Positions 30,658 to 47,093 of a stretch of 64,000 nt of DNA are shown here, piece after piece. Origin of the DNA: Xanthomonas sp. F10 (lineage in GTDB: Bacteria; Pseudomonadota; Gammaproteobacteria; Xanthomonadales; Xanthomonadaceae); assembly GCF_014206815.1 (NCBI RefSeq), contig NZ_JACHNP010000001.1:1516456-1580455 (forward strand), read 5' to 3'. Position numbers and translations under genes: made by a program. How positions within the stretch are numbered: the first letter of the stretch is position 1; every line of letters starts with the position of its first letter. The notes below the pieces were generated by a model that did not search any database, was not told where the DNA came from, and saw only the letters and a list, made by a program, of their open reading frames with translations.

Positions 30658-31365
30658 ATGCGCATCCTGGTTGCCGAAGACGATACGTCCATTGCCGTTG
30701 CATTGCGCGACTCGCTCGCCGAGTGCGGGCACGTGGTGGACCATGTCAGCGACGGTGCCGCCGCCGAACGCGCGCTCGGTAGCGAAAGCTATCAGTTACT
30801 GGTCCTGGACCTGGGCCTGCCACGCCGCGACGGGCTGCAGGTACTGCAGCGCCTGCGCGCCCGCCGCGACGAGATCCCGGTGCTGGTGGTGACCGCGCGC
30901 GACGCGGTGGAAGACCGTATCCGCGCGCTCGACCAGGGCGCCGACGACTACCTGATCAAGCCCTTCGAACTGTCCGAGTTCCTCGCCCGCACCCGCGCGC
31001 TCCTGCGCCGCAGCAGCAGCGGCGGGGTGCCGGAACTGGTGCTGGGGCAACTGCGCATCAACCTGGCCGGGCGCCGGGTGTGGCTGCAGGACCAGCCGCT
31101 GGACCTGACCGCACGCGAGTTCGCGCTGCTGGAGACCCTGTTGCTGCGCAGCGGGCGCGTGGTCAGCCGCAGCCAGCTGACCGAGGCGCTGTGCGACTGG
31201 CAACACGAAATCACCGACAACGGCCTGGACATCTCCATGCACCGCCTGCGGCGCAAGCTGCATGGCGCCGGCGTCGGCATCCGCACCATCCGCGGCCTGG
31301 GCTACCTGCTGGAGGAGTCGCGCGCCGCCTCACCGGCCGCCGACCACGCACAGATCCCGCAGTGA
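30658..31365 (+). CDS. Two-component response regulator, OmpR/PhoP family
   Basis: 235 residues. The receiver domain (1-120) has the acidic pocket EDD at 7-9, phospho-acceptor Asp51 in VLDLGLP and Lys101 in LIKPF. The C-terminal winged-helix domain carries LDLTAREFALLETLLLRSGRVVSR and TIRGLGYLLE. It is most like the PhoP/QseB/TctD group. First of six tightly coupled genes (histidine kinase, NodT lipoprotein, FtsX permease, ABC ATPase, adaptor), so it probably controls its own exporter. Its stop overlaps the kinase start (GTGA). Confidence 0.92.
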   Translation: MRILVAEDDTSIAVALRDSLAECGHVVDHVSDGAAAERALGSESYQLLVLDLGLPRRDGLQVLQRLRARRDEIPVLVVTARDAVEDRIRALDQGADDYLIKPFELSEFLARTRALLRRSSSGGVPELVLGQLRINLAGRRVWLQDQPLDLTAREFALLETLLLRSGRVVSRSQLTEALCDWQHEITDNGLDISMHRLRRKLHGAGVGIRTIRGLGYLLEESRAASPAADHAQIPQ

Positions 31366-32783: not shown

Positions 32784-34210
32784 ACCGGATCCGCTTTCGC
32801 CCGGCCAGCGTGCTGGGGCTGGCCGCCGCGCTCGCGCTGACGGGCTGCGCCAGCCAGCCCATCCCCGACCTGCGCCAGCCGTCGCTGCCCGCACAGTGGA
32901 GCAGCGCGACGCCGCAGGCGGCCGCGACGCGCCCGCCGGGCAGCGCCTGGTGGCAGGATTTCCACGATCCGCAGCTCGACGCGCTGGTCGCGCAGGCGCT
33001 GCGGGACGATCTCGAGGTCGGCCAGGCGCTGGCACGGCTGCGCGCGGCGCGGCGGCTGGACGCGGTCGCCGACGCCACCCTGCGGCCGCAACTGCGCGCG
33101 CGCACCGAGGACCCGATCGACCCGGACGCCAGCGCCTCGTTCCTGGTCGTGGGTGTGGATTCGGAGTGGGAGCTGCCGCTGTTCGGCCGCGGCGAAGCCA
33201 CCAACCGCGTGGCCCGCGGCGACCTGCAGAGCGCCCAGGCCAACCTGGCGCAGGTGCGCGCGGCGACGATCTCCGACGTGGCGCACAACTGGATCGACCT
33301 GCGCCACGCGCAGCAGGCCGAACGCCTGCTGCAGGACATCGCCAGCGCACGCCAGCGCCAGGCCAGCCTGCAACAGACCCTGGTCGACCTGCATCTGGCC
33401 GCGCCGGCCACCGCCGCACAGGCGCAGGCCGCGGCGCTGCAGGCGCAGGGCGCGGTGAACGAGCCGCGCGATGCCGCCGCCGCCGCGGCGCGGCGCCTGG
33501 CGGTGCTGCTGGGCCGCGACACGCCCGACCCGGCATGGAGCGCGGCCGCGGCCACCACCGCGCCGGGACAACTGCAGATCGCCGCGGTCGACAGCGTGCC
33601 GGCCGACCTGCTGCGGCGACGCCCGGACATCGCGGCGCACGAGGCCGAGGTGATCAGCGCCGCCGGCGCGCTGGGCATCGCCCGCGCCGACCGCTACGGC
33701 AGCATCGGCCTGGGCGGCGCGATCCGCTGGTCGACCAGCCTGCTGAGCCACCGCCGCACCGCCACCCACGGCATCGCCTCGTTCGGCCCGGTGATCGACA
33801 TCCCGCTGTTCGACTGGGGCATCCGCCAGGCCAGGGCCAAGGCGCGCGGCGACCTGCTGGAAGCGGCCACCCTGGCCTACCGGCAGACCGTGCTGGACGC
33901 GGTCAACGAGGTCGAGACTGCGCTGACCACGCTGGAGCAGCAGCGGCGCAACACCGAGACCCAGCAGCAGGTGCTGCAGGCGCAGCAGCAGGTCGCCGAG
34001 GCGGCGCAACAGCGCCGGCGGCTGGGCCTGGGCAGCGATCTGGACGTGGCCACGCAGCAGGCCGCGCGCGACCAGGCGGCGCTAGAACTGCTGGAAGCGC
34101 AGCGCCAGCGCGACCTGGCCTACGTCGCCCTGCACACCGCGCTGGGCAGCGCCACCGCGCCGATCCCCGGCGCCGGTCACGGCAGCGACCGCAAAGGCGC
34201 GCAGCCCTGA
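32780..34210 (+). CDS. Outer-membrane efflux lipoprotein, NodT/TolC family
   Basis: 476 residues. A lipoprotein signal ends in LTGC (Cys23). Two outer-membrane factor repeats follow, with WWQDFHDPQLDALVAQAL at the start, long alanine/glutamine-rich coiled-coil segments, RRRPDIAAHEAEVISAAG in the middle and NEVETALTTLEQQ near the end. It forms the trimeric exit duct of a tripartite exporter. The ATG overlaps the kinase stop by 4 bp. In this operon it pairs with an ABC permease/ATPase rather than an RND pump. Confidence 0.92.
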   Translation: MNRIRFRPASVLGLAAALALTGCASQPIPDLRQPSLPAQWSSATPQAAATRPPGSAWWQDFHDPQLDALVAQALRDDLEVGQALARLRAARRLDAVADATLRPQLRARTEDPIDPDASASFLVVGVDSEWELPLFGRGEATNRVARGDLQSAQANLAQVRAATISDVAHNWIDLRHAQQAERLLQDIASARQRQASLQQTLVDLHLAAPATAAQAQAAALQAQGAVNEPRDAAAAAARRLAVLLGRDTPDPAWSAAAATTAPGQLQIAAVDSVPADLLRRRPDIAAHEAEVISAAGALGIARADRYGSIGLGGAIRWSTSLLSHRRTATHGIASFGPVIDIPLFDWGIRQARAKARGDLLEAATLAYRQTVLDAVNEVETALTTLEQQRRNTETQQQVLQAQQQVAEAAQQRRRLGLGSDLDVATQQAARDQAALELLEAQRQRDLAYVALHTALGSATAPIPGAGHGSDRKGAQP

Positions 34211-35343
34211 TGGTCGCGCTGGCCCGCCAGACCCTGCGCTACGAGTGGCGCCGCTTCCTGCCGGTGGTGGTGTCGGTGGGCTTCGCCAGCCTGTTGCTGC
34301 TGCTGCAGACCGCACTGGTGCTGGGCATCTTCGGCAGCGCCAGCGTCTATGTCTCGGGCTCCGACGCCGACCTGTGGCTGGGCTATCCCGGCACGCAGAG
34401 CGTGGACCAGGGCCGCGCCATCGATCCGGACGCGGCCGCGCCGCTGCACCTCGACCCGCGGGTGGCGCAGATCGAGCCGTTCATCTGGTTCGACGGCGAC
34501 TGGCGCGGCCCCGGCGACACCGGCGCGGTATCTGTCTACATCTCCGGCATCGACACCCGCGACGGCGGGCTGATGTTCTCGCGCCTGCTCAGCCCCGCCC
34601 TGCGCGCGGCGCTGCGCGAACCGGACACCGTGGTGGTGGACCGCGCGGAACTGGACAAGCTCGGCGTCGGCGTCGGCAGCAGCGCGCGCATCAACGGCCA
34701 CCGCGTGCGGGTGATCGGGGTCGGCCGCGGCCTGCGCGCGCTGGGCGGCGTCAACGTACTGGCCTCGCTGGACACCGCGCGCGCGCTCAACAGCGACACC
34801 GCGCATCCGGACTGGCCGACGTACATGGTGGCCAGGCTGCGCCCCGGCGCCGACCCGCAGGCGGTGGCGCAGGCGATCGACGGCGCAATCACGCGGCCAC
34901 GCGTGGAAGCCTGGAGCGCCGACGATTTCGCCCGGCGCAGCATCCTGTTCTGGATGTTCGACACCGGCGCCGGCTCCGGCGTGCTGTTCCTCGGCGGCAT
35001 CGTGCTGCTGGTCGGCGTGGCCATCACCAGCCAGACCCTGCTCGGCACGGTGCTCGGCGCCGCGCGCGAGTACGCCACGCTCAACGCGCTGGGCGTGAGC
35101 ATGCGCAACCTGCGCTGGGTGGTGCTGGAACAGGCGGCCTGGGTCGGGGCGCTGGGCCTGATCGGCGCCAGCGCGCTGGGCGCGGCGCTGGTCGCGCTGG
35201 CCCGCGCGCACGACGTGCCGGTGGCGTTCAATGCCAGCGGCTGGGGCCTGTGCGTGTGCGCGGTGATGCTGCTGACCGTGGTCTCGGCCCTGGCCGCGCT
35301 GCGCGGGCTGCGCCGCGCCGATCCGGCGTTGCTGCTGCGATGA
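34210..35343 (+). CDS. ABC transporter permease, FtsX/MacB type
   Basis: 377 residues. One N-terminal helix (FLPVVVSVGFASLLLLLQTALVLGI), a periplasmic domain of about 230 residues, then three C-terminal helices starting VLFLGGIVLLVGVAITSQTLLGTVL. This is the type VII (MacB-like) topology, without a fused ATPase. Its ATG overlaps the stop of the NodT gene by one base (TGATG). With the separate ATPase that follows and the adaptor, it should form a mechanotransmission exporter acting on periplasmic substrates. Substrate unknown. Confidence 0.88.
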   Translation: MVALARQTLRYEWRRFLPVVVSVGFASLLLLLQTALVLGIFGSASVYVSGSDADLWLGYPGTQSVDQGRAIDPDAAAPLHLDPRVAQIEPFIWFDGDWRGPGDTGAVSVYISGIDTRDGGLMFSRLLSPALRAALREPDTVVVDRAELDKLGVGVGSSARINGHRVRVIGVGRGLRALGGVNVLASLDTARALNSDTAHPDWPTYMVARLRPGADPQAVAQAIDGAITRPRVEAWSADDFARRSILFWMFDTGAGSGVLFLGGIVLLVGVAITSQTLLGTVLGAAREYATLNALGVSMRNLRWVVLEQAAWVGALGLIGASALGAALVALARAHDVPVAFNASGWGLCVCAVMLLTVVSALAALRGLRRADPALLLR

Positions 35344-36104
35344 GCCGCATCGTCGCCCCCGCCGCGCTGCACCCGGCCGCCGCCACGCTCAGCGGCAGCG
35401 GCCTGTGCAAGAGCTTCGTCTCCGGCAGCCTGCGCACGCCGGTGCTGCGCGACGTGGAACTGCAGGTGTGGCCGGGCGAACTGACCCTGATCTCCGGCCC
35501 GTCCGGCTGCGGCAAGAGCACCCTGCTGTCGATCCTCAGCGGCCTGCAGCGCGCCGACGCCGGCCAGGTGCTGGCGCTGGGCGAGGCGCTGGGCACGCTC
35601 GGCGCCACCGCACTGGAGCAGTTCCGCCTGCGCCATACCGGCTTCATCTTCCAGGGCTTCAACCTGTTCCCGGCGCTGTGCGCGCTGGACCAGGTGCGGC
35701 TGCCGCTGCAGTACATGGGCCTTGCCCCCGCCGAGGTGCGCAGCCGCGCCGAAGAGGCGCTGGCCGAGGTCGGCATCGCCCACCGCCAGCACCTGCGCCC
35801 AGCCGAGCTGTCCGGCGGCGAGAAGCAGCGCGTGGCGATCGCCCGCGCGCTGGCCAAGCACCCGGCGCTGCTGTTCGCCGACGAACCGACCAGCGCGCTG
35901 GATGCCGGCAACGGCCAGATCGTGATCGACCTGCTGCACCGCATCGCGCGCCGCCACAACACCATGGTGCTGTGCGTGAGCCACGACCCGCGCCTGATCC
36001 GCCACGCCGACCGCGTGCTGTCGATGGAGGACGGCCGCATCCTCGACGACCGCCGCGTGAACGCGCCGCCCTCGCCCCTGCCCTCACGGAATCCCGCACC
36101 ATGA
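35340..36104 (+). CDS. ABC transporter ATP-binding protein (LolD/MacB-like)
   Basis: 254 residues. Walker A GPSGCGKST at about residues 53-61, Q-loop FIFQGFNLFPAL, signature ELSGGEKQRVAIARAL, Walker B LLFADEPTSALD, H-loop VSHDPR. It resembles the LolD/MacB/FtsE group that partners FtsX-type permeases. It overlaps the permease stop by 4 bp and the adaptor start by 4 bp. The 15 C-terminal residues are proline-rich, beyond the conserved fold. Confidence 0.92.
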   Translation: MSRIVAPAALHPAAATLSGSGLCKSFVSGSLRTPVLRDVELQVWPGELTLISGPSGCGKSTLLSILSGLQRADAGQVLALGEALGTLGATALEQFRLRHTGFIFQGFNLFPALCALDQVRLPLQYMGLAPAEVRSRAEEALAEVGIAHRQHLRPAELSGGEKQRVAIARALAKHPALLFADEPTSALDAGNGQIVIDLLHRIARRHNTMVLCVSHDPRLIRHADRVLSMEDGRILDDRRVNAPPSPLPSRNPAP

Positions 36105-37003
36105 AAGCGTTCGCCGCCGCGCCCCTGCTGAGCCTGCTGCTGGCCGCATGCGCGCCATCGGACCGCACGCCGGCCCCGGCGCCGGCCGCCGCCCCCGCCG
36201 CCTACCTGGCGGTGGCGCGCGGCCGCATCGACGTGGAGGGCGGCGTGCTCAAGCTCGGCCTGCCGGTCGCCGCGACCCTGCGCGAGGTGCCGGTGCACGA
36301 GGGCGACGCGGTGCAGAAAGGCGCCTTGCTGGTCGCCGGCGACGACCGCGCCGCCGCGGTCGACCTGGACATCGCCCGCACCCGCGCGCAGGCCGCGGCC
36401 ACCCACCTGAAACAACTGCAGCAGCGCCTGCAAAGCGCCCAGCAGAAGCAACGGCGGCTGGCCGAGGCCGCGCGCCTGGGCGCCAGCGACGGCCAGAGCG
36501 CCGACGACGCCAGCGACGCGGTGCAGAGCCTGGTCGACGCGCTGGACACCGCACGCAGCGATGCGGCCCTGGCCGACGCGCAGGTGCGCGCGGCCGAGCT
36601 GCAGCGCGCGCAGTACCGGCTGCAGGCGCCGGTCGCCGGGCGCGTGCTGCAGCTGTCGGCCGCGGTCGGCGCACGCAGCGAGGCCAACGCGCCACTGCTG
36701 ACCCTGCTGCCGGACGCCCCGCGCCTGGTCCGCGCCGAATTGAACGAAAGCTATGCCGGCAGCGTCACTCCGGGCATGGCCGCCGAGGTCATCAGCGACG
36801 ACGGCCGCCAGACCGTGCTCGGCCAGGCGGTGGTGCGCTGGCTGGCGCCGGCCTACGGCCCCACCCAACTGCACGACGACGCCACGCCCGCCGGCAACGA
36901 TCGCAGCGTGGCCTGCGTCCTGGCCTTCACCCAGCCCTCGACCCTGCGCATTGGCCAGCGCGTGCTGGTACGCTTCCGCAATCCGGCCGCGGCCAAGCAC
37001 TGA
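36101..37003 (+). CDS. Periplasmic adaptor lipoprotein, HlyD/MacA family
   Basis: 300 residues. A lipoprotein signal ends in LLAAC (Cys17) and a proline/alanine spacer follows. A lipoyl half-motif comes next (PVHEGDAVQKGALLVAGDD), then a coiled-coil hairpin of about 100 residues (TRAQAAATHLKQLQQRLQSAQ), the second lipoyl half (YRLQAPVAGRVLQLSAAVG) and a beta-barrel domain. It should bridge the FtsX permease to the NodT duct. It is slightly shorter than MacA, lacking a long membrane-proximal domain. Last gene of the six-gene operon; 91 bp separate it from the hydrolase. Confidence 0.88.
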   Translation: MKAFAAAPLLSLLLAACAPSDRTPAPAPAAAPAAYLAVARGRIDVEGGVLKLGLPVAATLREVPVHEGDAVQKGALLVAGDDRAAAVDLDIARTRAQAAATHLKQLQQRLQSAQQKQRRLAEAARLGASDGQSADDASDAVQSLVDALDTARSDAALADAQVRAAELQRAQYRLQAPVAGRVLQLSAAVGARSEANAPLLTLLPDAPRLVRAELNESYAGSVTPGMAAEVISDDGRQTVLGQAVVRWLAPAYGPTQLHDDATPAGNDRSVACVLAFTQPSTLRIGQRVLVRFRNPAAAKH

Positions 37004-37094: not shown

Positions 37095-37922
37095 ATGATC
37101 GAATCTGCCGAGTTCCACTTCGAAGGCGGCCGCAACGGCGTGCTGCTGATCCACGGCCTGACCGGCACGCCCAGCGAGATGCGCCTGCTCGGCAAGAGCC
37201 TGAACCGCGAAGGCTTCAGCGTCCACGGCGTGCAGCTGGCCGGCCACTGCGGCGACGAGGACGACCTGCTGGCCACCAGTTGGCGCGACTGGTACGCCAG
37301 CGTCGAGGCCGCCGCCGCGCGGATGCGCCCGCAGGTCGACCGGCTGTTCGTGGCCGGGCTGTCGATGGGCGCGCTGCTTGCGTTGCGCCTGGCCCAGGAG
37401 CGGCCGCAGTGGGTGGACGGCGTCGGCGTGCTCGGCGCCACCTTCCGCTACGACGGCTGGAACATCCCCAAGCGCGCGCGGCTGGCGTTCCTGCTGCCGT
37501 GGTTCAAGCGCCTGGGCATCGGCAAGCGCCGCATGTTCCTGGAAGAACCGCCGTACGGCCTGCGCGACGAGCGCATCCGCGCCCAGGTCAGCAGCGCCAT
37601 GCTCGGCGGCGACAGCAGCGCCGCCGGCCTGCCCGGCAATCCGTGGCACGCGCTGGCCGAGATGTACCTGCTCTCGCGCGACGTGCGCCGCAACCTGCCC
37701 AAGGTGGTCGCGCCGTGCCTGGTCGCGCACGCGGCAGAGGACGACATCGCCGACCTGCGCAACGCGCGGCTGGTGATCGCCAACGTCTCCGGGCCGACCG
37801 AACTGCTGCTGCTGCACGACAGCTACCACATGATCACCCTGGACCGCGAACGGCGCGTGCTCGGCGCGCGCCTGGCGCAGTTCTTCGCGGCGCTCACCGC
37901 CCCGCAGCAGGCCGCCGCCTGA
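37095..37922 (+). CDS. Alpha/beta hydrolase, carboxylesterase-like
   Basis: 275 residues. Oxyanion strand GVLLIHGLTGTPSEM, nucleophile elbow GLSMG near residue 94, acidic residue in HAAEDDIAD and catalytic His in HDSYHMITLD: all members of the triad are visible. It resembles Est30-type carboxylesterases/lysophospholipases. No signal peptide, so cytoplasmic. Its stop overlaps the first small transporter by one base (TGATG). This ties it to the putative biosynthesis/export group at 37-46 kb, where it could release or hydrolyse an acyl intermediate (inference). Confidence 0.85.
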   Translation: MIESAEFHFEGGRNGVLLIHGLTGTPSEMRLLGKSLNREGFSVHGVQLAGHCGDEDDLLATSWRDWYASVEAAAARMRPQVDRLFVAGLSMGALLALRLAQERPQWVDGVGVLGATFRYDGWNIPKRARLAFLLPWFKRLGIGKRRMFLEEPPYGLRDERIRAQVSSAMLGGDSSAAGLPGNPWHALAEMYLLSRDVRRNLPKVVAPCLVAHAAEDDIADLRNARLVIANVSGPTELLLLHDSYHMITLDRERRVLGARLAQFFAALTAPQQAAA

Positions 37923-38284
37923 TGGCGATGACCGGCTCGGTGGTGGCGATCTGGCTGGCGACGGTGGCGCTCGACACCGCCGGCCAGTTGGCCTTCAAGT
38001 ACGTCGCCAGCCACCCGCAGGGCACCGGCATGGCGCGCTGGCAGCACATGGCGCGGCAGCCGCAGCTGTGGTTCGGCGTGGCCTGCTACGTGTTCGAATT
38101 CCTCGCCTGGACCGCGTTCCTGTCGCTGGTGCCGCTGGGCCGCGGCGTGCTGCTGGGCTCGATCAACATCGTGGCGATCATGCTGGCCGGGCGCTGGCTG
38201 TTCGGCGAACGCCTCGGGCGCATGCAGGTGGCCGGCATCTGTCTGGTCAGCGCCGGCGTGGCCGTGGTGGGGCTGGGCTCATGA
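37922..38284 (+). CDS. Small DMT-superfamily transporter, ArnE-like subunit
   Basis: 120 residues with four predicted transmembrane helices, the size of ArnE/EmrE-type proteins. Conserved features include the early ALDTAGQLAFKYVA segment, the SLVPLGRGVLLGSINIV stretch and the closing GICLVSAGVAVVGLG. It overlaps the next gene, a second four-helix protein, by 4 bp. The pair resembles the ArnE/ArnF aminoarabinose-lipid flippase or other heterodimeric small exporters. No other arn genes are present, so the substrate is probably different. Confidence 0.8.
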   Translation: MAMTGSVVAIWLATVALDTAGQLAFKYVASHPQGTGMARWQHMARQPQLWFGVACYVFEFLAWTAFLSLVPLGRGVLLGSINIVAIMLAGRWLFGERLGRMQVAGICLVSAGVAVVGLGS

Positions 38285-38679
38285 GCCGGCCGCCGCTGCA
38301 TCGCTACGCGGTCGGCTTCGCCCTGCTGCTGAGCTTCGACACCCTGGCCCAGATCGGCTTCAAGCTGGCCGGCACCCACGCGTTTCCGCCGCAGGCCGAA
38401 CTGGCCTGGGTGCTGCGCCTGCTGGGCAGCCCGTGGCTGTACGCCGCGCTGCTGGGCTACGTCGGTGCGTTCTTCACCTGGATGAAGCTGCTCGAGCACG
38501 CGCCGATCGGCCCGGCCTTCGCCGCCTCGCACCTGGAGGTGGTCAGCGTGATGCTGCTGTCGGCCTGGTGGTTCAACGAACACATCGGCCTGTTGCAGGC
38601 GCTGGGCGCGGCGCTGATCGTCGCCGGCATCGTCTGCCTGGCGATCGGCGAACGCGCGGATCCCGCCGATGCGCATTGA
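38281..38679 (+). CDS. Small DMT-superfamily transporter, ArnF-like subunit
   Basis: 132 residues, four predicted helices. LLSFDTLAQIGFKLAGTHAF at the N terminus parallels the previous protein, and LEHAPIGPAFAASHLEVVSVML is the third-helix region. It presumably forms a heterodimer with the 120-residue protein. It overlaps the DegT-type aminotransferase gene by 11 bp, so hydrolase, both transporters and aminotransferase form one coupled unit. Confidence 0.8.
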   Translation: MSRPPLHRYAVGFALLLSFDTLAQIGFKLAGTHAFPPQAELAWVLRLLGSPWLYAALLGYVGAFFTWMKLLEHAPIGPAFAASHLEVVSVMLLSAWWFNEHIGLLQALGAALIVAGIVCLAIGERADPADAH

Positions 38680-39922
38680 GGTGCCGCCGACCGCGGGCCT
38701 GCCGCTGCAGTGGCGCGACCTGTGGCCAGGCCGCCCGCGCACGCGGCTGGCCACTGCGCTCGGCCTGCCGCAGGCGCTGCTGACCTGCTCCGGCACCGCC
38801 GCGCTGATCGTGGCGCTGCGCACCCTGACCGCGGCCAGCCGGCGCCGGCAGGTGCTGGTGTCGGCCTACACCTGCCCGCTGGTGGCGCTGGCAGTGGCGC
38901 ACTGCGGCCTGCAGTTGGTGTTGTGCGATCTGCTGCCCGGCTCGCTGGAACTGGACCCGGCGCAGTTGGCGCAACGCTGCGGCAGCGACACCCTGGCGAT
39001 CATCGCCACCCACCTCGGCGGGCGCCTGACCGACCTGGCGCCGCTGCGCCGCGCCGCCGAAGGCTGCGGCGCGTTGCTGATCGAGGACGCGGCGCAGGCG
39101 CTGGGCGGCGTGCACCCCGACGGCCGCCCGGCCGGCCTGGGCGGCGACATCGGCTTCTGCAGCCTGGCCGCCGGCAAGGGCTTGACCCTCTACGAAGGCG
39201 GGCTACTGATGTCGCGGCATGCGCCGCTGCAGCGCAGCCTCGCCGACACCGCCGCACGCCTGGGCCAGCGCGACTGGCGCTGGGAACTGCGCCGCAGCCT
39301 GGAACTGCTCGGCTACGCCGCGCTGTACCGGCCGCAGCCGCTGCGCTGGGCGTACGGCGCACCGGTACGCCGCGCACTGCGTCGCGGCGACCGCGTGGGC
39401 GCGGCCGGCGACCGCTTCGGGACGGCCATCGCCCAGCATGCCGTCGGCGCCTGGCGCGAAGGCGTCGGCGTGCGCGCCAGCGCGCGCTGGCCGGCGTTCC
39501 TGGCGCAGATCCGTGAGCAGGGTCGGCGCCGCAGCGCACGCCTGGCCGGCATTCCCGGCCTGACCGTGATCGCCGATACCCCCGGCGCCCAGGGCAGCTG
39601 GCCGATCCTGATGGTGCTGCTGCCCGAGGCGGCCGCGCGCGAATCGGTGCTGGCCGCACTGTGGCCGCGCGGGCTCGGCGTGGCGGTGCCGTTCGTGCAT
39701 GCCCTGCCCGATTACGATTACCTGGACGGCATCGTCGAGCGCACGCCGATGCCCAACGCCCGCGACTTCGCCGCACGCTGCCTGAGCATCAGCAACAGCC
39801 CCTGGCTGGACGAGGCGCGCTTCGAGACCATCGTGGCCACGCTGCAGGCGGCCTGCGCCGGCACGGTCGGACCGGCGCCGCTGGATGTCGATCTGGTGCA
39901 TGCCGCTGCGCCGAGCGCTTGA
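38669..39922 (+). CDS. DegT/DnrJ/EryC1-type PLP aminotransferase
   Basis: 417 residues. The cofactor-phosphate motif is CSGTAALIVALRTL. Further motifs are SAYTCPLVALAVAHCG and the cofactor aspartate in LIEDAAQALGG. The Schiff-base lysine is Lys170 in SLAAGKGLTLYEGG. Family members transaminate nucleotide-linked keto sugars (ArnB, DesV) or serve in aminocyclitol synthesis. Here the C-terminal half is divergent, and no nucleotide-sugar gene is adjacent, so another carbonyl substrate is plausible. It starts inside the end of the transporter gene and is followed by a REP-like palindrome. Confidence 0.85.
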   Translation: MRIEVPPTAGLPLQWRDLWPGRPRTRLATALGLPQALLTCSGTAALIVALRTLTAASRRRQVLVSAYTCPLVALAVAHCGLQLVLCDLLPGSLELDPAQLAQRCGSDTLAIIATHLGGRLTDLAPLRRAAEGCGALLIEDAAQALGGVHPDGRPAGLGGDIGFCSLAAGKGLTLYEGGLLMSRHAPLQRSLADTAARLGQRDWRWELRRSLELLGYAALYRPQPLRWAYGAPVRRALRRGDRVGAAGDRFGTAIAQHAVGAWREGVGVRASARWPAFLAQIREQGRRRSARLAGIPGLTVIADTPGAQGSWPILMVLLPEAAARESVLAALWPRGLGVAVPFVHALPDYDYLDGIVERTPMPNARDFAARCLSISNSPWLDEARFETIVATLQAACAGTVGPAPLDVDLVHAAAPSA

Positions 39923-39989
39923 TCGAGCGACGGGCGGCTTCGCCAGCGTCGCGATGACAATGCGCCGCTCGTGACGACGGGAAGCATCC

Positions 39990-40056
39990 TGTAGGAGCGG
40001 CTTCAGCCGCGAGGGCATTACCGGTAACGCCTCTCGCGGCTGAAGCCGCTCCTACA
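39990..40056. repeat. REP-like intergenic palindrome, copy 2
   Basis: Perfect 24-bp inverted arms at 39990-40013 and 40033-40056. The 19-bp centre is itself almost palindromic (GCATTACCGGTAACGC), so the whole 67 bp folds as one long hairpin. It lies in the convergent gap between the DegT-type and arginase-fold genes. The arm core is the same as in 2712-2780. Confidence 0.85.
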
Positions 40057-40072
40057 CACCGACAAGGCCGCG

Positions 40073-40951
40073 CTAGCCGACGCTGGACGCGTCCAACGCC
40101 GCCAGCAACCGCAGGTTCAATGTATGCTGCTGCGCCTGCCACGCCGACAGATCCGCCGGCGACGGCTCGGGCTGCGCGTCCAGCGCCGCCAGCTTGCGCT
40201 TCCACCATTGCGGGTAATGGGCCAGCGAGACTTCGCCGGTGATGTCGCTGCCGCACACCTGGCCGCGCAGCGCGTCGATCGCCTGCAGCAACTGCGGCAC
40301 GCGCAGCTGGCCCTGGTCCCAGTTGGTACGCACGTCCTGTGGATCCAGCACGTCCTTGTCCAGCGACAGATAGGTCGGCATCGGCGTGCGCCGCAGGTGT
40401 TCGACGAAGGCGTCGCTCAGTTCGCTTACGCTGGCGAAGCCGCGCACCGCCTGGCCCAGCCCCAGCCATCGCGCCCAGCCCACGTCCACGCCACTGCACC
40501 AGTAACGCAGCTTGCCGCGGTACAGCGGCAGCAGATGGTTCTCCCAGGCATGGCCAGGGCCGACGTCGCTGGAAGTGATGCCGGCCACCTCGACCTGCGC
40601 CACCTGCGGCAGCGCGGCGATGCGCCGCACCCACGAGCCGCAGTGCACCCCGAACGGGAAGCGCATGTTGTCCGGATGGTTGTCGAACACCACCACGCGC
40701 AACGGCGCCTGCGCGCGCTGCGCCAGGCGCACGATCAGCGGCAGGCTCAGGTGATGGAAATCGCCGCTGCCCAGCAGCACGGTGCCGTACTGCGCCGGCA
40801 GCGCCTGCTCCAGCGCCGCGCCGAAGCGGCGCAGCCGCGCCATCGAGCAGGCGAAGCGCAGGCCGTCGCACCAATCGCGCATCGGCAAGCGCACGGCAGC
40901 GGGCACCGCGCCCAGCGAATCATCGAGATCGAGCAGGACCGGAGTGCGCAT
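40073..40951 (-). CDS. Arginase/ureohydrolase-fold family protein
   Basis: 292 residues. The binuclear-metal motifs of the arginase superfamily are recognisable but modified. GSGDFHH (61-67) stands where arginases have GGDH. FDNHPDN gives Asp90, His92 and Asp94. SLDKDVLDP gives Asp198, Asp200 and Asp203, and SDITGE follows. It is therefore probably a metal-dependent C-N hydrolase of a guanidino, formimino or acyl-amide group, but not a canonical arginase or agmatinase. It starts one base after the stop of the FemAB-like gene (TGAGATG), so the two are coupled. Confidence 0.75.
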   Translation of the reverse strand: MRTPVLLDLDDSLGAVPAAVRLPMRDWCDGLRFACSMARLRRFGAALEQALPAQYGTVLLGSGDFHHLSLPLIVRLAQRAQAPLRVVVFDNHPDNMRFPFGVHCGSWVRRIAALPQVAQVEVAGITSSDVGPGHAWENHLLPLYRGKLRYWCSGVDVGWARWLGLGQAVRGFASVSELSDAFVEHLRRTPMPTYLSLDKDVLDPQDVRTNWDQGQLRVPQLLQAIDALRGQVCGSDITGEVSLAHYPQWWKRKLAALDAQPEPSPADLSAWQAQQHTLNLRLLAALDASSVG

Positions 40952-40952
40952 C

Positions 40953-42020
40953 TCAGTCCTCCTCGGCGGCATCGGCCGCCGGCCCGACGTCGTCGGATTC
41001 GAACAGCGGCCGCAACCGCCGCAGCAGCGCGCGCAGCAGCGGATTGCGCAGGTACACCGCATGCCAGGTGTAGGTGAAGCTGGCGCCGAGTTGGGCCTTC
41101 ACTTCCGGGTCCGTCCAGCCGGCGACATAGGCCGTCAGGCCGTGGCGGCAGGCATAGTCGAGGTTCTCGATCCAGCTCAACGCGTACAGGTTGTGCTCGC
41201 GCGCGTCCGGGTAATGCAGGCCGATGTACTTGTCCAGCAGCCGGCCCTGGTGCACGTAGCAAAGGTTCCAGCCGATGATGCGGCCCTGGTGCCGGTACAC
41301 GAACACCTGCCCGCCGGACTCGGCGTCGGTCAGCAGCGCGTCGAAGAACGGCTGGGTGAGCAGGTCGAAATGGATCTCGCTCTGCGCATACACCTCCTGG
41401 TACAGCGCATAGCAGTGCGCGCGCAGCGCCGGGTCGGCGAAGGCCGGGCCGGTCGGCAGCACCTCGATCTCCAGATCGGCGCGCGAGCGCAGCTTGCGGC
41501 GGATGTTGCGCCGGCGCCCGCGCGAAAGTCGCGCCAGGTACTCGTCGGTGGAGGCGAAGTCGATCGGCACCCAGGCCAGCGCCTGCCCGCGCAGCAGCAC
41601 ATAGCCATTGCGCTCGCAGGCGTCCAGGAACGTCTGCGCCCAGGAGTTGTCGGCGTCATCCAGCAGCGGCGAATGCTGCGCCACGTCCTTGACGATCAGC
41701 AGCGCGCGTTGCCGCCCCAGTTGCGCGCGCCATTGCCGCGGCAACTGCGCCGGGTCGGCCGCGCGCGGCAGCCAGGCGTATTCGCTGACGGTGCTGCCGA
41801 CGAAGCTGGTGCGCGGCCGCAGCAGGCGCTGCCACAGCCGCTGCAGCGGCAACCGCGCCACCTTCGCGCGCAGCGCCGGTTCGGCGGTGGTGAGCAGGTC
41901 GAAATCGGCCTCGAAGGCCGGCACCCCGTGCTCCAGGGGCTGGATCAGGAAACCGGCCGGCGGGTGCTGCAGGAACTGCCGCTGCAAGGCCTGCGGCTCG
42001 AGTTGGTTGACGAAAGGCAT
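40953..42020 (-). CDS. FemAB/GNAT-like acyltransferase
   Basis: 355 residues with a C-terminal GNAT-type fold resembling FemAB-like and PF04339-like proteins. Visible stretches are YLARLSRGRRRNIRRKLRSR (a basic segment common in this group), YALYQEVYAQSEIHFDLLTQ, GGQVFVYRHQGRIIGWNL and DKYIGLHYPDAREHNLYAL. Members transfer aminoacyl or acyl groups onto amines. It is divergent from the acyl carrier protein gene with only 112 bp between, and coupled to the arginase-fold gene. A role moving an ACP-bound acyl group to an amine is inference. The start at 42020 is the first ATG giving MPFVNQLEP. Confidence 0.75.
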   Translation of the reverse strand: MPFVNQLEPQALQRQFLQHPPAGFLIQPLEHGVPAFEADFDLLTTAEPALRAKVARLPLQRLWQRLLRPRTSFVGSTVSEYAWLPRAADPAQLPRQWRAQLGRQRALLIVKDVAQHSPLLDDADNSWAQTFLDACERNGYVLLRGQALAWVPIDFASTDEYLARLSRGRRRNIRRKLRSRADLEIEVLPTGPAFADPALRAHCYALYQEVYAQSEIHFDLLTQPFFDALLTDAESGGQVFVYRHQGRIIGWNLCYVHQGRLLDKYIGLHYPDAREHNLYALSWIENLDYACRHGLTAYVAGWTDPEVKAQLGASFTYTWHAVYLRNPLLRALLRRLRPLFESDDVGPAADAAEED

Positions 42021-42132
42021 CTGCAAGATTGATCGTCTAGCGTGGAGAATGGATGCTGCGGCCCAGGCCGCAGCGTGCGATCCACCGGCGGCGGGCGCCG
42101 CACGGTGGCCCTTCATTTCGCGGAGCACTGCC

Positions 42133-42405
42133 ATGACCCCGTCCATCGAGTCGCAAATCCACAGCATCGTCGCCAAGCATGGCGAGATCGACCCGGCGCG
42201 CCTGACCCCCGATGCCAAGCTGCAGGACCTGGGCGTGGATTCGCTCGAGGCCATCGAAATCCTGTTCGACATCGAGGAACACTTCGACATCACCTTCCCG
42301 CAGCGCGACCCGAACCTGGACGACGGTTCGCTCGGCAAGCTGGTGCAGGCGGTCGAGGACGCGCTGGCGGCCAAGGCGGCCAGCGCGGCGCAACCGGCGC
42401 ACTGA
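42133..42405 (+). CDS. Dedicated acyl carrier protein
   Basis: 90 residues. The phosphopantetheine site is Ser37 in LGVDSLEAIE, and the typical acidic helix II (IEILFDIEEHF) follows. The sequence differs from housekeeping AcpP (a longer loop RDPNLDDGSL and an alanine-rich tail), and it sits next to its own ketosynthase rather than in a fab operon. The ketosynthase gene follows after 6 bp. Likely carries the acyl chain in the putative pathway at 37-46 kb. Confidence 0.9.
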   Translation: MTPSIESQIHSIVAKHGEIDPARLTPDAKLQDLGVDSLEAIEILFDIEEHFDITFPQRDPNLDDGSLGKLVQAVEDALAAKAASAAQPAH

Positions 42406-42411
42406 CCCGCC

Positions 42412-43650
42412 ATGGGCGCCTCTCCGCACGCGCGGCGCGTCGTCATCACCGGCATGGGCGCGGTCAGCGCGCTCGGCCTCGGCGCCGCGGCGCTGTGGAG
42501 CGCGATGCGCGAGGGCCGCAGCGGCATCGCCGCCCTGCCCTCGCCCGATCCGCTCAGCACCCTGAAGATGCGCCTGGCCGCGACCCTGCCCGGGTTCGCG
42601 CCCGACGCCACGCAGACCGGCGGCATCGCCCCCGGCCAGCTCGATCGCATGACCCAGATGGCGTTGGTCGCCGCCCAGGAAGCGATCGTCCAGGCCGGCC
42701 TGCCGCGCGACGATGCCGCGCTCGGCGCGCGCTGCGCGGTGGTGGTCGGTACCGGCGTCGGCGCCGAACTCAGCCGCGACGAGCAATCGCGCCGGCTGTA
42801 CCGCGACCAGGCCGAACGCCTGCATCCGCTGACCATCGTGCGCAGCATGGCCAACGCCCCGGCCAGCCAGATCAGCATCGCCTTCGGCCTGCGCGGCCCG
42901 GCCTTCGCCGTGTCCAGCGCCTGCGCCTCGGCCAACCACGCCTTCGCCCAGGCCGTGCTGATGATCCGTCACGGCCTGGCCGACGTGGCCATCGCCGGCG
43001 GCAGCGAAGCCTGCCTGAGCCTGCCGCTGATCCGTGCCTGGGAAGCGATGCGCGTGGTCAGCGACGACACCTGCCGGCCGTTCTGCGCGCAGCGCAGCGG
43101 CTTGGTGCTGGGTGAAGGCGCCGGGATGTTCGTGCTGGAAAGCGCCGAACACGCCGCTGCCCGCGGCGCACGGCCGCTGGCGGAACTGGCGGGATTCGGC
43201 ATGAGTTCCGATGCCGGCGACATCGTCGCGCCCAGCGTCGACGGCGCCGCCACAGCGATGCGCCTGGCGCTGCAGGATGCCGGCCTGGCGCCGGAACAGA
43301 TCGACTACATCAACGCCCATGGCACCGGCACGCAGGCCAACGACCGCTGCGAGACGCAGGCGCTGCGCCAGGTATTCGGCGCGCATGCCGAGACGCTGGC
43401 GGTGAGTTCGACCAAGGCGGTGCACGGCCACGCGCTCGGCGCGGCCGGCGCGCTGGAACTGGTGGCGGCGCTCGGCGCGCTGCGCGAGCAGGAGGTCCCG
43501 CCCACGGCCAACTTCCTCGATGCCGATCCGCAATGCGATCTGGACTACGTGCCCAACCAGGCGCGCGCCCGCCATGTGCAGGCGGTGCTGAGCAATTCCT
43601 TCGCCTTCGGCGGACTCAATGCGGTGATCGCGCTGCGCGCGGCGGGCTGA
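42412..43650 (+). CDS. Beta-ketoacyl-ACP synthase, FabF/KAS II-like
   Basis: 412 residues of the thiolase fold. Decarboxylating Cys-His-His triad complete: Cys171 in SSACASANHA, His303 in NAHGTGTQAND and His338 in AVHGHALGAAGA. NSFAFGGLNAVI closes the protein. It condenses malonyl-ACP with an acyl starter, presumably on the adjacent ACP. No ketoreductase, dehydratase or enoyl reductase gene is nearby, so either one condensation occurs or FASII enzymes are borrowed (inference). It converges with the class III aminotransferase, 65 bp away. Confidence 0.9.
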   Translation: MGASPHARRVVITGMGAVSALGLGAAALWSAMREGRSGIAALPSPDPLSTLKMRLAATLPGFAPDATQTGGIAPGQLDRMTQMALVAAQEAIVQAGLPRDDAALGARCAVVVGTGVGAELSRDEQSRRLYRDQAERLHPLTIVRSMANAPASQISIAFGLRGPAFAVSSACASANHAFAQAVLMIRHGLADVAIAGGSEACLSLPLIRAWEAMRVVSDDTCRPFCAQRSGLVLGEGAGMFVLESAEHAAARGARPLAELAGFGMSSDAGDIVAPSVDGAATAMRLALQDAGLAPEQIDYINAHGTGTQANDRCETQALRQVFGAHAETLAVSSTKAVHGHALGAAGALELVAALGALREQEVPPTANFLDADPQCDLDYVPNQARARHVQAVLSNSFAFGGLNAVIALRAAG

Positions 43651-43715
43651 AGCGCCCGCCGCCGCGGCGAACGGCGGGAGGCAACGCGAACCGCGCGCGT
43701 CGTCTCCCGCCCGGC

Positions 43716-45188
43716 TCATGCGACCTGCTTGGCGCGGGTCAGCAACTGGTCCAGCAAGGACAGGCCCAGGTCGATCTCTTCGTGGCTGATGTGCAGCGAC
43801 GGCGCCAGCGTGATCACGTTCTTGTAGTAGCCGCCCACGTCCAGGATCAGGCCGATGCGCTTGCCGTTGTGGCGCAGCTCGCCTTCCAGGCCCATGTCGA
43901 CCATGGTGTCGAGCAGCTTGCGGTTCGGCGTGAAGCCGTCCGCCTGGCAGATTTCCGCACGCAGGGCCAGGCCCAGGCCGTCGACGTCGCCGATTTCCGG
44001 GTGACGCTTCTGCAGGTCGCGCAGGCCGTCCAGGAAGTGCGCGCCCTTGGCCATGACCATGGACTCGTAGTCGGTCTCGGCCAGCATGCGCATGGTCTCC
44101 AGGCCGACCGCGGTGCCCAGCGGGTTGGAGGCGAAGGTGGAATGGGTCGAACCCGGCGGGAACACGGTCGGGTTGATCAGCTCCTCGCGCGCCCAGATGC
44201 CGGCCAGCGGATTGAGGCCGTTGGTCAGCGCCTTGCCGAACACCAGCACATCCGGGGTCACGCCGAAATGCTCGATCGCCCACAGCTTGCCGGTGCGGAA
44301 GAAGCCCATCTGGATTTCGTCGACCACCAGCAGGATGCCGTACTTGTCCAGCACCCGCTTCAGGCCGGTGAAGAAGTTCGGCGGCGGGATCACGTAGCCG
44401 CCGGTGCCCTGGATCGGCTCGACGTAGAACGCCGCGTACTCGCACTGCCCGGCCTTGGGATCCCACACGCCGTTGTACTCGGTCTCGAACAGGCGCTCGA
44501 ACTTGGCCACGCACTGCTCGCCGTACTCTTCCTTGGACATGCCCTTGGGGCCGCGGAAGTGATACGGGAATTCGATGAACTGGGCGCGGTCGAAATGGCC
44601 GAAGCGGCGGCGGTAGCGGTACGACGAGGTGATCGCCGAGGCACCGAGGGTCCGGCCGTGGTAGCCGCCCTCGAAGGCGAACACCAGGCTCTTGCCGGCG
44701 CTGGCGTTGCGCACCAGCTTCAGCGAGTCTTCCACCGACTGCGCGCCGCCGACGTTGAAGTGCACGCGGCCCTTGCGGCCCCACTTGCGCTCGGCGTCGA
44801 CCGCGATGGTCTTGGCCAGCTCGATCTTGGTCGGGTGCAGGTACTGGCTGGCGACCTGCGGCAGGGTCTCGATCTGGCGGGTCAGCGCCTGGTTCAGGCG
44901 CGGATTGGCGTAACCGAAGTTGACCGCCGAGTACCACATCTGCAGGTCCAGGTACGGCACTTCTTCGGTGTCGTACAGGTAGCTGCCGTCGCAACGGCCG
45001 AAGATGCGCGGCGGCTCGCTGTAGTGCACGGTGTCGCCGTAGGAGCAGTACTGGGATTCGTCGGCCAGCATCTGCGCATCGCTGAGCGCGCGCTGGTGGT
45101 CGGCACCGGTGCGCAGCAGCGCCTCCGGATCGGGCGCGGCATCGCCATGCAGCGGTGCGAGCGAGGAAAGCGAAACATTCCGGTTCAT
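43716..45188 (-). CDS. Class III PLP aminotransferase
   Basis: 490 residues, fold type I, class III. Motifs are FNVGGAQSVEDSLKL (phosphate binding), EGGYHGRTLGASAIT, the cofactor Asp in LLVVDEIQMGFFRTGKLWA, Lys319 in VFGKALTNGLNPLAG and STHSTFASNPLGTAVG. The N-terminal 60 residues are longer than in ornithine or acetylornithine aminotransferases. It follows the HAD phosphatase by 5 bp on the same strand, so the two form an operon. The donor is probably an amino acid or diamine such as ornithine or 2,4-diaminobutyrate (family inference only). Confidence 0.87.
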   Translation of the reverse strand: MNRNVSLSSLAPLHGDAAPDPEALLRTGADHQRALSDAQMLADESQYCSYGDTVHYSEPPRIFGRCDGSYLYDTEEVPYLDLQMWYSAVNFGYANPRLNQALTRQIETLPQVASQYLHPTKIELAKTIAVDAERKWGRKGRVHFNVGGAQSVEDSLKLVRNASAGKSLVFAFEGGYHGRTLGASAITSSYRYRRRFGHFDRAQFIEFPYHFRGPKGMSKEEYGEQCVAKFERLFETEYNGVWDPKAGQCEYAAFYVEPIQGTGGYVIPPPNFFTGLKRVLDKYGILLVVDEIQMGFFRTGKLWAIEHFGVTPDVLVFGKALTNGLNPLAGIWAREELINPTVFPPGSTHSTFASNPLGTAVGLETMRMLAETDYESMVMAKGAHFLDGLRDLQKRHPEIGDVDGLGLALRAEICQADGFTPNRKLLDTMVDMGLEGELRHNGKRIGLILDVGGYYKNVITLAPSLHISHEEIDLGLSLLDQLLTRAKQVA

Positions 45189-45193
45189 CGGGA

Positions 45194-45886
45194 TCAGGCT
45201 CGTTGGGTGACGGGAAGCGGGAAGGACACGGCGGCCGTGGCCGGCACGGCCAGGTCGGGCAGCAGGGCGATGGCGTCGTCGAAACCGGTGATCGCGCAGT
45301 GGGCGATCCCGTTGGCGCGGCAATGGCGCAGCAGACCGTCCTTGGCGAACACCAGGTCGGCCTTGCCGGCCAGGCAGAAATCGGAGCGGCCGTCGCCGAT
45401 CAGCAAGGTGGCGCGCTCGGGCGGCTGTTGCGCCATGACCGCGCACTTGCAGGTGCCGCTGGGGCAGTCCGGCCGCGCATGCGGCGAGGCCATGCGCCAT
45501 TCGCCGGCGTCGGTGCGCAGCAGGCGGTTGGCGATGATCGGCAGATGGTGCAGGCCGTGGCGGGCCAGGATCCGGGCGATACCGTAGTCCAGGCCGTCGC
45601 TGACGATGCTCAGCGGGATGCCCAGGCGCTCGGCCTGCGCGACGAAGCGCACGAAGGCCGGGTCGATCCGCACCGCATCCAGCACCCGGTGCAGCGCATC
45701 GACGTCGCCGTCGAGCAGCGCGACCTGCTTGCTCATGCACTCGCGGGCGCCGATCCGACCGGCGACCCAGTCGTCCTCCAGCGCCTGCCAACCGGGGCGC
45801 CCGAGGTGCTCGAGCAGGCTGTCGGTCACGTCCTGCAGGGACACGGTACCGTCAAAATCGCAAAGGATGTTCCATTGGGCGCGCAA
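45194..45886 (-). CDS. HAD-family phosphatase (MtnX/SerB-like)
   Basis: 230 residues. HAD motif I DFDGTVS contains Asp10 and Asp12. Motif II is SIVSDGLDYG and motif IV is LIGDGRSDFCLAGKADLVFAK. It resembles the HAD-IB group (MtnX, phosphoserine phosphatase-like). The start is most likely TTG at 45886, because GGAGAG lies 7 nt upstream and the product then starts MRAQWNILCDFDGT; no ATG fits. A second Cys-rich stretch PDCPSGTCKC is unusual for the family and could bind metal. First gene of the two-gene unit with the aminotransferase. Confidence 0.82.
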   Translation of the reverse strand: MRAQWNILCDFDGTVSLQDVTDSLLEHLGRPGWQALEDDWVAGRIGARECMSKQVALLDGDVDALHRVLDAVRIDPAFVRFVAQAERLGIPLSIVSDGLDYGIARILARHGLHHLPIIANRLLRTDAGEWRMASPHARPDCPSGTCKCAVMAQQPPERATLLIGDGRSDFCLAGKADLVFAKDGLLRHCRANGIAHCAITGFDDAIALLPDLAVPATAAVSFPLPVTQRA

Positions 45887-46220: not shown

Positions 46221-47093
46221 TTACACGACAAACCATCCGGTCGGGTACTGCTCCACCATGAACTCCACAAACGCCTTGACCTTCGGGCTTTGCAGGCGAC
46301 GCGACGTATGCATCACCCAGAGCTGGGTGTCCTTGCCGGCGACGCCCCAGGACACGAGCTCCCCAGTGTCCAACTGGGTTCCGATGATCGACTGCGGCAA
46401 CAGGGCGACCCCCGCACCCGCCACGACGGCATCGCGGATCGACAGCAGCGAAGACAGCGTGAGCACTGGCTGCGGCTCATAAGCGACCTCCCCCTCTACG
46501 GACCAGACGTCTCCTTCGCGATGGGTCCGCATGACGACCGCAGGAACAGGAGCGGGCCCGCCAGAATGCGCTGCAGGAATCCGTAGCGACGGGGCCGCTG
46601 CGAGGATCAGCCTGTCTTTGGCGAAGCACCTGCCGACTAGGCCCCCTTCCTCTCTTGGGTTGACACGGATGGCGACGTCGAAATGCTCCTCGACCAGATC
46701 GGCCAACCGGTCTTCCGCAACGACCTCGATCTGAACGTCCGGATGTAGGGCCCTGAACCGCGCAGCCAGCCGACCGAGCGCGACCTGCGAGAACAGCTGC
46801 GGTGCGGCGACGCGAAGACGTCCACGCGGCCCGGTCAAGCCTTCCCGCGCCGTCATGACCGCCTCGACGATCTCACGCATCGGGCCAACGGTCTGGGACA
46901 GCAACAGCGTTCCGGTCTCCGTGAGTACCAGGCTTCGGCCCCCTCGTTCAAGGAGGCGAACCCCCAGGGCATTTTCGAAGTCGGCGAGCCGTCGCGAGAG
47001 GGTGGCCTTCGAGCGGCCGCTGGCGCGGCTGGCTTTGCCAAAGCCGCCGTGAGTCGCCACGAGCTGGAAATCCTGGAGGGCGTCGAGATCCAT
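46221..47093 (-). CDS. LysR-family transcriptional regulator
   Basis: 290 residues. The N-terminal winged helix (FQLVATHGGFGKASRASGRSKATLSRRLADFENALGVRLLER) is followed by the usual LTETG and a LysR effector domain (GRLRVAAPQLFSQVALGRLAARF). It is divergent from the NmrA-like gene with 112 bp between, the classic arrangement for a LysR regulating its neighbour. It resembles regulators of NmrA/quinone-reductase type genes. Intact, although its probable target is frameshifted. Confidence 0.88.
   Translation of the reverse strand: MDLDALQDFQLVATHGGFGKASRASGRSKATLSRRLADFENALGVRLLERGGRSLVLTETGTLLLSQTVGPMREIVEAVMTAREGLTGPRGRLRVAAPQLFSQVALGRLAARFRALHPDVQIEVVAEDRLADLVEEHFDVAIRVNPREEGGLVGRCFAKDRLILAAAPSLRIPAAHSGGPAPVPAVVMRTHREGDVWSVEGEVAYEPQPVLTLSSLLSIRDAVVAGAGVALLPQSIIGTQLDTGELVSWGVAGKDTQLWVMHTSRRLQSPKVKAFVEFMVEQYPTGWFVV

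Follow-up and report, generated by a model that had tools for sequence, protein, structure and literature searches.

A widespread ten-gene system of Xanthomonas sp. F10 and its possible role in making an amine-bearing envelope lipid

The window analysed here is a stretch of 64,000 nucleotides from Xanthomonas sp. F10, with 71% G+C. It contains a block of ten genes (37095–45886), which a preliminary description had taken for a possible system that builds one short acyl chain, aminates it or joins it to an amine, and trims and exports it. The ten-gene set is a real gene system common to many bacteria, and it occurs in relatives of Xanthomonas, on plasmids of rhizobia and Agrobacterium, in bee-gut symbionts and in bat Bartonella. 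Our tentative reading, at somewhat less than even confidence, is that the genes encode a sensor-linked envelope pathway, which produces a membrane lipid bearing an amine and carries it to the other side of the membrane. Narrow searches of open-access papers turned up no account of the gene set; subscription papers and preprints lay outside their scope, so an earlier description is possible.

The genes are arranged in four units. On the plus strand, ABH (37095–37922) encodes an alpha/beta hydrolase, either a serine hydrolase or an acyltransferase (Pfam Hydrolase_4, 76 bits; GxSxG motif). It is followed by SMR1 (37922–38284) and SMR2 (38281–38679), EamA/ArnE-F-like membrane proteins that form the two halves of a putative flippase pair (Pfam EamA, 30 bits against a cut-off of 28.2, and 41.6 bits), and by DEGT (38669–39922), a DegT/DnrJ/EryC1-type pyridoxal phosphate (PLP) aminotransferase (Pfam, 127.5 bits). 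The minus strand then carries ARG (40073–40951), an arginase-fold ureohydrolase (Pfam Arginase, 36.0 bits against a cut-off of 22), and FEM (40953–42020), a tandem-GNAT transferase of the MprF/FemX fold. ACP (42133–42405), an acyl carrier protein (Pfam PP-binding, 42 bits), and KS (42412–43650), a FabF-like ketosynthase (Pfam ketoacyl-synt, 174 bits), lie on the plus strand. AT3 (43716–45188), an unusually conserved class III PLP aminotransferase (Pfam Aminotran_3, 258 bits), and HAD (45194–45886), an MtnX-like HAD-IB phosphatase with a TTG start (NCBIfam TIGR01489, 96.9 against 81.55 bits; Pfam Put_Phosphatase, 36 against 27 bits), are again on the minus strand. A LysR-type regulator gene (46221–47093, minus) is located on the same strand, 334 bp upstream of HAD.

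Sixteen proteins of the window, these ten and six encoded upstream, were scanned against Pfam, and the ten also against NCBIfam. Both databases agree with the family names proposed earlier for the ten open reading frames, all of which are free of internal stops. Known active-site patterns were then sought in the translations. KS has SACAS, AHGTGT and GHALGAAG, ACP has DSL, HAD has DFDGT and ABH has GLSMG; the PLP aminotransferase motifs are present in AT3 (DEIQMG and FGKAL) and DEGT (EDAA and SLAAGK). The expected motifs were thus all found in KS, ACP and both aminotransferases, whose catalytic residues had been described as intact. Translational coupling had been proposed for all four units; coupling by gene overlap is seen only in the first (ABH/SMR1/SMR2/DEGT spacings of −1, −4 and −11 bp), and the other three are merely tight (FEM/ARG +1, ACP/KS +6, HAD/AT3 +5 bp).

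The first unit really begins 6.4 kb upstream of the bounds given to the block, with two-component and MacB/TolC/HlyD genes on the same strand as ABH (30658–37003). RR (30658–31365) encodes an OmpR/PhoP-type response regulator (Pfam Response_reg, 92 bits; Trans_reg_C, 72 bits) and overlaps by 4 bp with HK (31362–32783), a sensor histidine kinase gene (Pfam 2CSK_N, HisKA and HATPase_c). Next come OMP (32780–34210), a TolC/NodT-like outer-membrane efflux protein (Pfam OEP, 113 bits); PERM (34210–35343), a MacB-like ATP-binding cassette (ABC) permease (Pfam FtsX and MacB_PCD); ATP (35340–36104), an ABC ATPase with its ATG start at 35340 (Pfam ABC_tran, 114 bits); and HLYD (36101–37003), a periplasmic adaptor that by eye is a lipoprotein (Pfam HlyD_3). 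The six genes overlap one another by 1–4 bp, and 91 bp separate the end of HLYD from the start of ABH. RR to HLYD and ABH to DEGT are likely on one transcript; a promoter and terminator scan against shuffled sequence gave no clear signal. Export had been assigned to the ArnE/F-like pair alone, a view that finds no support here, the same unit also encoding sensor proteins and an ABC exporter of the tripartite kind.

Searching public genomes with ARG as the query gave 147 relatives, of which the best 80 loci were analysed, genes being counted as matches at E≤1e-4. ARG is present in this set by construction, and the fetched flanks extend no further than 10 kb or the end of the contig, which makes the counts of all other genes minimum values; in G269, for instance, AT3 is located about 12 kb from ARG. 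FEM adjoins ARG on the same strand in 80 of 80 loci. SMR1 and SMR2 were each found in 69, ABH in 65, DEGT in 63, KS in 46, ACP in 45, AT3 in 43 and HAD in 37; of the six genes that precede ABH in the window, RR gave a match in 23 and HLYD in 20. The AT3 proteins are 71–99.6% identical to that of the window. All ten genes fall inside the flanks in 14 loci, including L021 and L029, where the aminotransferase matched is of another class III branch, 26–27% identical to AT3.

A sample of 398 genomes of the phylum (cut-offs E≤1e-170 for AT3 and E≤1e-10 for FEM) contains ARG in 16 genomes, AT3 in 24 and FEM in 26. Every one of the 16 ARG genomes also carries AT3 and FEM. AT3 and FEM occur together in 22 genomes, FEM accompanying AT3 in 22/24 genomes and 12/13 genera; AT3 lacks FEM in G121 and G260, and FEM lacks AT3 in G262, G280, G347 and G359, the matches in the last two being weak (43–48 bits). 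The Fisher test for AT3–FEM co-occurrence gives p = 5e-30 for genomes and 4e-16 for genera. The latter is the fairer value because genomes are related, and even genera are not fully independent.

The co-occurrence test and the constant FEM–ARG adjacency indicate that the grouping goes beyond chance. An accidental neighbourhood of unrelated genes could be argued from the four units on alternating strands and from the small number of complete loci; set against phylum-wide co-occurrence and clusters that have been rearranged and are still joined, it is extremely improbable. The earlier proposal that the genes form one system is therefore supported by co-localisation and co-occurrence. The check on whether all ten families stay together in relatives gave a divided answer: the complete set is found in only 14/80 loci, and subsets of it are joined very strictly. 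None of the genes occurs in every version of the system; the widest spread is that of FEM, ABH, the SMR pair, AT3 and HAD, and ACP, KS and DEGT are optional parts.

Plasmid records reveal further versions. ARG relatives were found on 49 records and AT3 (E≤1e-80) on 34, mostly of Rhizobium and Agrobacterium, and for ARG also of Roseomonas. Twelve plasmid loci were fetched, eleven of them annotated. HAD is present in 10/12, and KS with ACP in only one, that of a Xanthomonas. A two-component system is annotated alongside in 9/11, the exceptions being two Bartonella loci, and in two Agrobacterium loci (L126, L135) genes for TolC, permease, ATPase and adaptor follow directly. A fatty acid desaturase is encoded within the cluster in Rhizobium L130 and L136, Agrobacterium L133 and Sinorhizobium L132, joined in L130, L133 and L136 by a cyclopropane synthase. 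The L133 neighbourhood also includes a phosphoethanolamine–lipid A transferase, a diacylglycerol kinase and MipA/OmpV.

These distributions bear on the acyl part of the product. ACP and KS had been placed at the core of the pathway; their counts in the 80 loci and on plasmids, and the lack of either in any fetched Variovorax, Pigmentiphaga, Snodgrassella, Gilliamella or Frischella locus, do not support that role. The desaturase and cyclopropane synthase point to ordinary long chains, and not to the short chain first suggested. An acyl-plus-amine product is plausible in both its parts; the short chain and the ACP/KS core are not supported. KS scores 422.5 bits against TIGR03150, the FabF of primary fatty-acid synthesis, under the cut-off of 493.75, and reaches the looser subfamily NF005589 (409.8 against 387 bits). 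ACP and KS show weak similarity to cispentacin AmcB/AmcF in NCBIfam, which agrees with a beta-amino fatty acid pathway, where KS and ACP would give a 3-ketoacyl thioester, AT3 would aminate it and ABH release it. Such a pathway could also account for KS, HAD, AT3 and ABH lying together in G260 and, accompanied by ACP, in G182, G206 and G232. We nevertheless consider it improbable: AT3 is still 71–89% identical in 26 loci whose fetched flanks contain no KS or ACP, an enzyme of the other class III branch can replace AT3, and a phosphatase, superfluous for a thioester route, stands near AT3 in 35/43 loci.

An aryl polyene or pigment link was prompted by the hosts Xanthomonas, Lysobacter, Variovorax and Frischella. 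Aryl polyene and xanthomonadin clusters encode a dehydratase, a ketoreductase, several ketosynthases and an MMPL exporter. The link was rejected, there being no aryl-polyene enzymes among the 16 window genes scanned.

The pairing of AT3 with a phosphatase bears on the amine part. AT3 stays below the cut-off of each of the 25 best NCBIfam families listed for it (top 273 against 552 bits). Neither AT3 nor DEGT has a match among PDB sequences at strict limits, and the distant matches under relaxed limits fix no substrate. HAD falls in subfamily TIGR01489 and is far from the cut-off of MtnX TIGR03333 (80 against 303 bits); its best PDB match is MtnX (2fea) and those of ABH are monoacylglycerol lipases, neither of which fixes a substrate. 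In three lineages an enzyme of the glutamate-1-semialdehyde aminomutase branch occupies the place of AT3 near HAD, a non-orthologous swap seen in Roseomonas L127 (9484–10827), Aureimonas L131 (7547–8884) and Dokdonella L021 (18818–20203). The substitute is 26% identical to AT3, and the Roseomonas and Aureimonas copies are 73% identical to each other. That enzymes of two class III branches stand at one site beside a single phosphatase suggests that the substrate is a small phosphorylated ketone. Bradyrhizobium RtxA is reported to make serinol phosphate from dihydroxyacetone phosphate (PMC3222319), and Campylobacter Cj1437 to make serinol phosphate, with the HAD phosphatase Cj1435 acting later (PMC11800397). 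Both resemble AT3 and HAD in that an aminotransferase and a dephosphorylation yield an amino alcohol, a likeness of reaction; their products, rhizobitoxine and a capsule amide, differ. By this analogy, our guess for the amine made by AT3 and HAD would be serinol.

The predicted fold of FEM is nearest to aminoacyl-tRNA-dependent transferases, and its earlier description as a plain FemAB-like acyltransferase is not supported. The highest structural Z scores (17.5–17.8) are with Sba18 and Sbb17, the aminoacyl-tRNA-dependent peptide synthases of streptothricin, tied with MprF; only about 15% of the structurally aligned residues of FEM and the streptothricin enzymes are identical. FEM shares the tandem-GNAT fold that characterizes the MprF synthase domain.

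ARG belongs to the ureohydrolase (arginase) superfamily by the Pfam cut-off. Its metal motifs had been called altered; GSGDxHH, DNHPD and DKD, which we take to map onto the arginase metal ligands, are invariant in 23 aligned orthologues, so the dimetal ureohydrolase ligand set looks complete. ARG scores 17.1 bits against agmatinase TIGR01230, for which the cut-off is 174.3. Structural alignments to proclavaminate amidinohydrolase, guanidinopropionase and agmatinase, which share its fold and metal ligands, give 10–22% identity, and a sequence search of the PDB returned one weak match, which fixes no substrate. Proclavaminate amidinohydrolase also acts on an arginine-derived adduct. The pairing of FEM and ARG in every one of the 80 loci suggests that ARG acts on the group added by FEM. 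In its neatest form, arginine from tRNA would be cut to ornithine; this route would explain the adjacency because ornithine has no tRNA of its own, and if true it predicts a mass difference of 42.022 Da (CH2N2).

ArnE and ArnF flip undecaprenyl phosphate-linked aminoarabinose (Ara4N). An aminosugar modification of lipid, in which DEGT would make an amino sugar and the ArnE/F-like pair would flip it, as for Ara4N on lipid A, draws on the DegT family, the weak similarity to ArnE, ArnF and ArnB, the two-component system close by and the phosphoethanolamine transferase (EptA) neighbour on one plasmid. DEGT, however, scores 45.3 bits against the ArnB equivalog NF008658 (cut-off 631); SMR1 scores 26.6 against ArnE and 26.1 against ArnF, and SMR2 20.8 and 30.0 (cut-offs 92 and 99). 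All three stay far below these Ara4N-pathway thresholds, in line with the preliminary description. Versions with the SMR pair and without the optional DEGT exist, and the 16 window genes scanned include no glycosyltransferase; this alternative is rather unlikely.

The sensor and exporter genes raise the possibility of a secreted acyl-amine or amino-acid amide, which would leave through the EamA pair and the MacB–TolC pump, with a two-component regulator of its own. This view comes near that of the preliminary description and is the main rival, though we regard it as unlikely. Lipid-tailoring enzymes in the clusters of relatives argue against it, as does the lack of a nonribosomal peptide synthetase or polyketide synthase module among the 16 window genes scanned. 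ARG is kept in 19/20 genomes of the genus, that of the window counted, which would be unusual for a strain-specific compound (15/119 in the family sample). In addition, permease and adaptor were found in only 26/109 loci, a lower bound from a tblastn tally with few seeds.

A stress link is offered by MipA. The 24 AT3 genomes have 19 MipA genes above cut-off, in 12 genomes, of which six are no more than 10 kb away from AT3 or FEM (G309, G312, G352, G400, G423, G457), where rough arithmetic gives about 0.1 expected at random. MipA matches also adjoin the genes in 4/6 Gilliamella and 6/12 plasmid loci. In Pseudomonas aeruginosa, MipA is reported to bind polymyxins and to work with the ParS kinase (PMC10936184). 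The system could possibly be armour against cationic peptides. Models of anti-phage defence in PADLOC-DB gave no match to the seven of the ten proteins scanned (SMR1, SMR2 and ACP left out).

In the favoured aminolipid pathway, AT3 would first aminate a small phosphorylated ketone, our best guess being that dihydroxyacetone phosphate becomes serinol phosphate. HAD would then strip the phosphate to leave an amino alcohol. The acyl chain joined to this next would come from general fatty-acid synthesis or, in Xanthomonadales and certain further lineages, from the dedicated KS and ACP, with ABH acting in acyl transfer or as a turnover hydrolase. FEM would add an aminoacyl (or acyl) group, and ARG would process the product, cutting arginine to ornithine if FEM draws on Arg-tRNA. 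The SMR1/SMR2 pair would flip the finished lipid, while the two-component system would sense envelope stress, perhaps cationic peptides, with the MacB–TolC pump in the same response. The fully specified version, in which a cationic lipid has the amino-alcohol core from AT3 and HAD, receives arginine from Arg-tRNA through FEM, has that arginine cut to ornithine by ARG and is flipped outward by an EamA heterodimer under a cationic-peptide sensor, is a long shot. The gene content, co-occurrence, predicted folds and metal ligands are observed features; the chemistry, product and trigger are what we infer from them.

Several observations weigh against the aminolipid. At E≤0.01, FEM matches no MprF-synthase model of Pfam, only PF04339 and PF13480. 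G121 has no FEM or ARG match, while its AT3, HAD, ABH, SMR1 and SMR2 adjoin, by eye, an apparent HlyD–ABC–TolC set and a two-component pair; the FEM and ARG steps are therefore dispensable somewhere. HAD is missing near AT3 in 8/43 loci (L018, which begins inside AT3, and seven of Pigmentiphaga type), and neither Bartonella locus has HAD, ABH or the EamA pair nearby. DEGT lacks a clear role in the scheme. The two-component pair was found in 40/109 loci and the exporter genes in fewer, and an exporter suits a secreted product equally well. The kinases beside FEM in G182 and G232 have a domain for nitrate/nitrite sensing and not a peptide sensor. Finally, the MipA linkage in whole genomes rests on two genera and fails in the window genome, whose sole MipA gene is about 0.4 Mb away.

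The system would act like Arn or MprF/LpiA with the hydrolase AcvB (AcvB, PMC13197417; MprF, PMC8131360) and yet belongs to neither on the scores above. FEM differs from MprF/LpiA in having no flippase part, flipping being left to the separate EamA pair. The MprF/LpiA systems are not known to have proteins corresponding to ARG, AT3 or HAD. OlsB uses free ornithine and acyl-ACP; an ornithine headgroup might be shared with the OlsB/OlsA ornithine lipids. A surface aminolipid, if true, would be a further Gram-negative route to altered envelope charge, beside Arn, EptA and MprF, and would give a function to families annotated merely as 'arginase family', 'EamA family' and 'GNAT family'. An arginine-to-ornithine lipid, if true, would mean an aminoacyl-lipid pathway that bypasses the absence of ornithyl-tRNA.

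Hosts of the 80 loci include Lysobacter, Dyella, Rhodanobacter, Dokdonella, Salinisphaera, Variovorax, Pigmentiphaga, Pseudomonas luteola, Snodgrassella, Gilliamella and Frischella. DEGT has no match in the Gilliamella loci or in L109–L115. L113–L115, from another genus of the window's family, have ARG, ABH, FEM, SMR, ACP, KS and a response-regulator match, without AT3, HAD or DEGT matches within the cluster; L113 also carries a fatty acid desaturase. The gammaproteobacterial G400 and G457, presumably Pseudomonas, and G312, which is from another class, have ARG and FEM proteins of only about 26–30% identity and AT3 of 72–75%. In these genomes ARG, SMR, HAD, AT3, ABH and FEM are clustered without DEGT, KS and ACP; all three have kinase matches.

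The eight AT3 genomes without ARG show smaller modules. HAD, AT3 and ABH matches cluster together, with ABH near AT3 in all eight, and in six FEM is located away from AT3. Pfam confirms a sensor kinase and an NtrC-type regulator beside AT3 in G178 and a kinase in G278. The separate FEM adjoins an SMR-like gene in G178, G206 and G264. In G182 and G232 its neighbour encodes a large kinase that has a nitrate/nitrite-sensing (NIT) domain, and in G278 it has neither beside it. In the FEM-only G262 and G280, SMR-like matches are beside FEM. In two deep-branching genomes FEM adjoins a hybrid kinase with a NIT domain (L192, 10457–13621; L193, 5850–9053).

A CAAX-protease-like (Rce1) gene separates ARG from DEGT in Dyella loci (L036, 10928–11803, and ten similar). 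At the same place, Pigmentiphaga-type loci (L033, 11536–18762, and six similar) are split by an insert encoding an ABC half-transporter with DUF1854 and five proteins without a Pfam match. In annotation the transporter/DUF1854 pair is tied to cyanophycin; the insert was judged a separate gene group. In the bat Bartonella loci an annotated MBOAT O-acyltransferase gene lies two genes from ARG (L128, 12025–13407; L137, 12045–13427). The closest named records to the window are X. sacchari R1 (AT3 99.6% identical) and Xanthomonas sp. NCPPB 1128 (ARG 96%). R1 has the block, with hemN and phosphotransferase system genes, on a 508-kb 'plasmid' (L129, NZ_CP010410.1, 427937–452812); the window genome carries it on a 2.6-Mb contig, and the R1 plasmid record may be a piece of chromosome.

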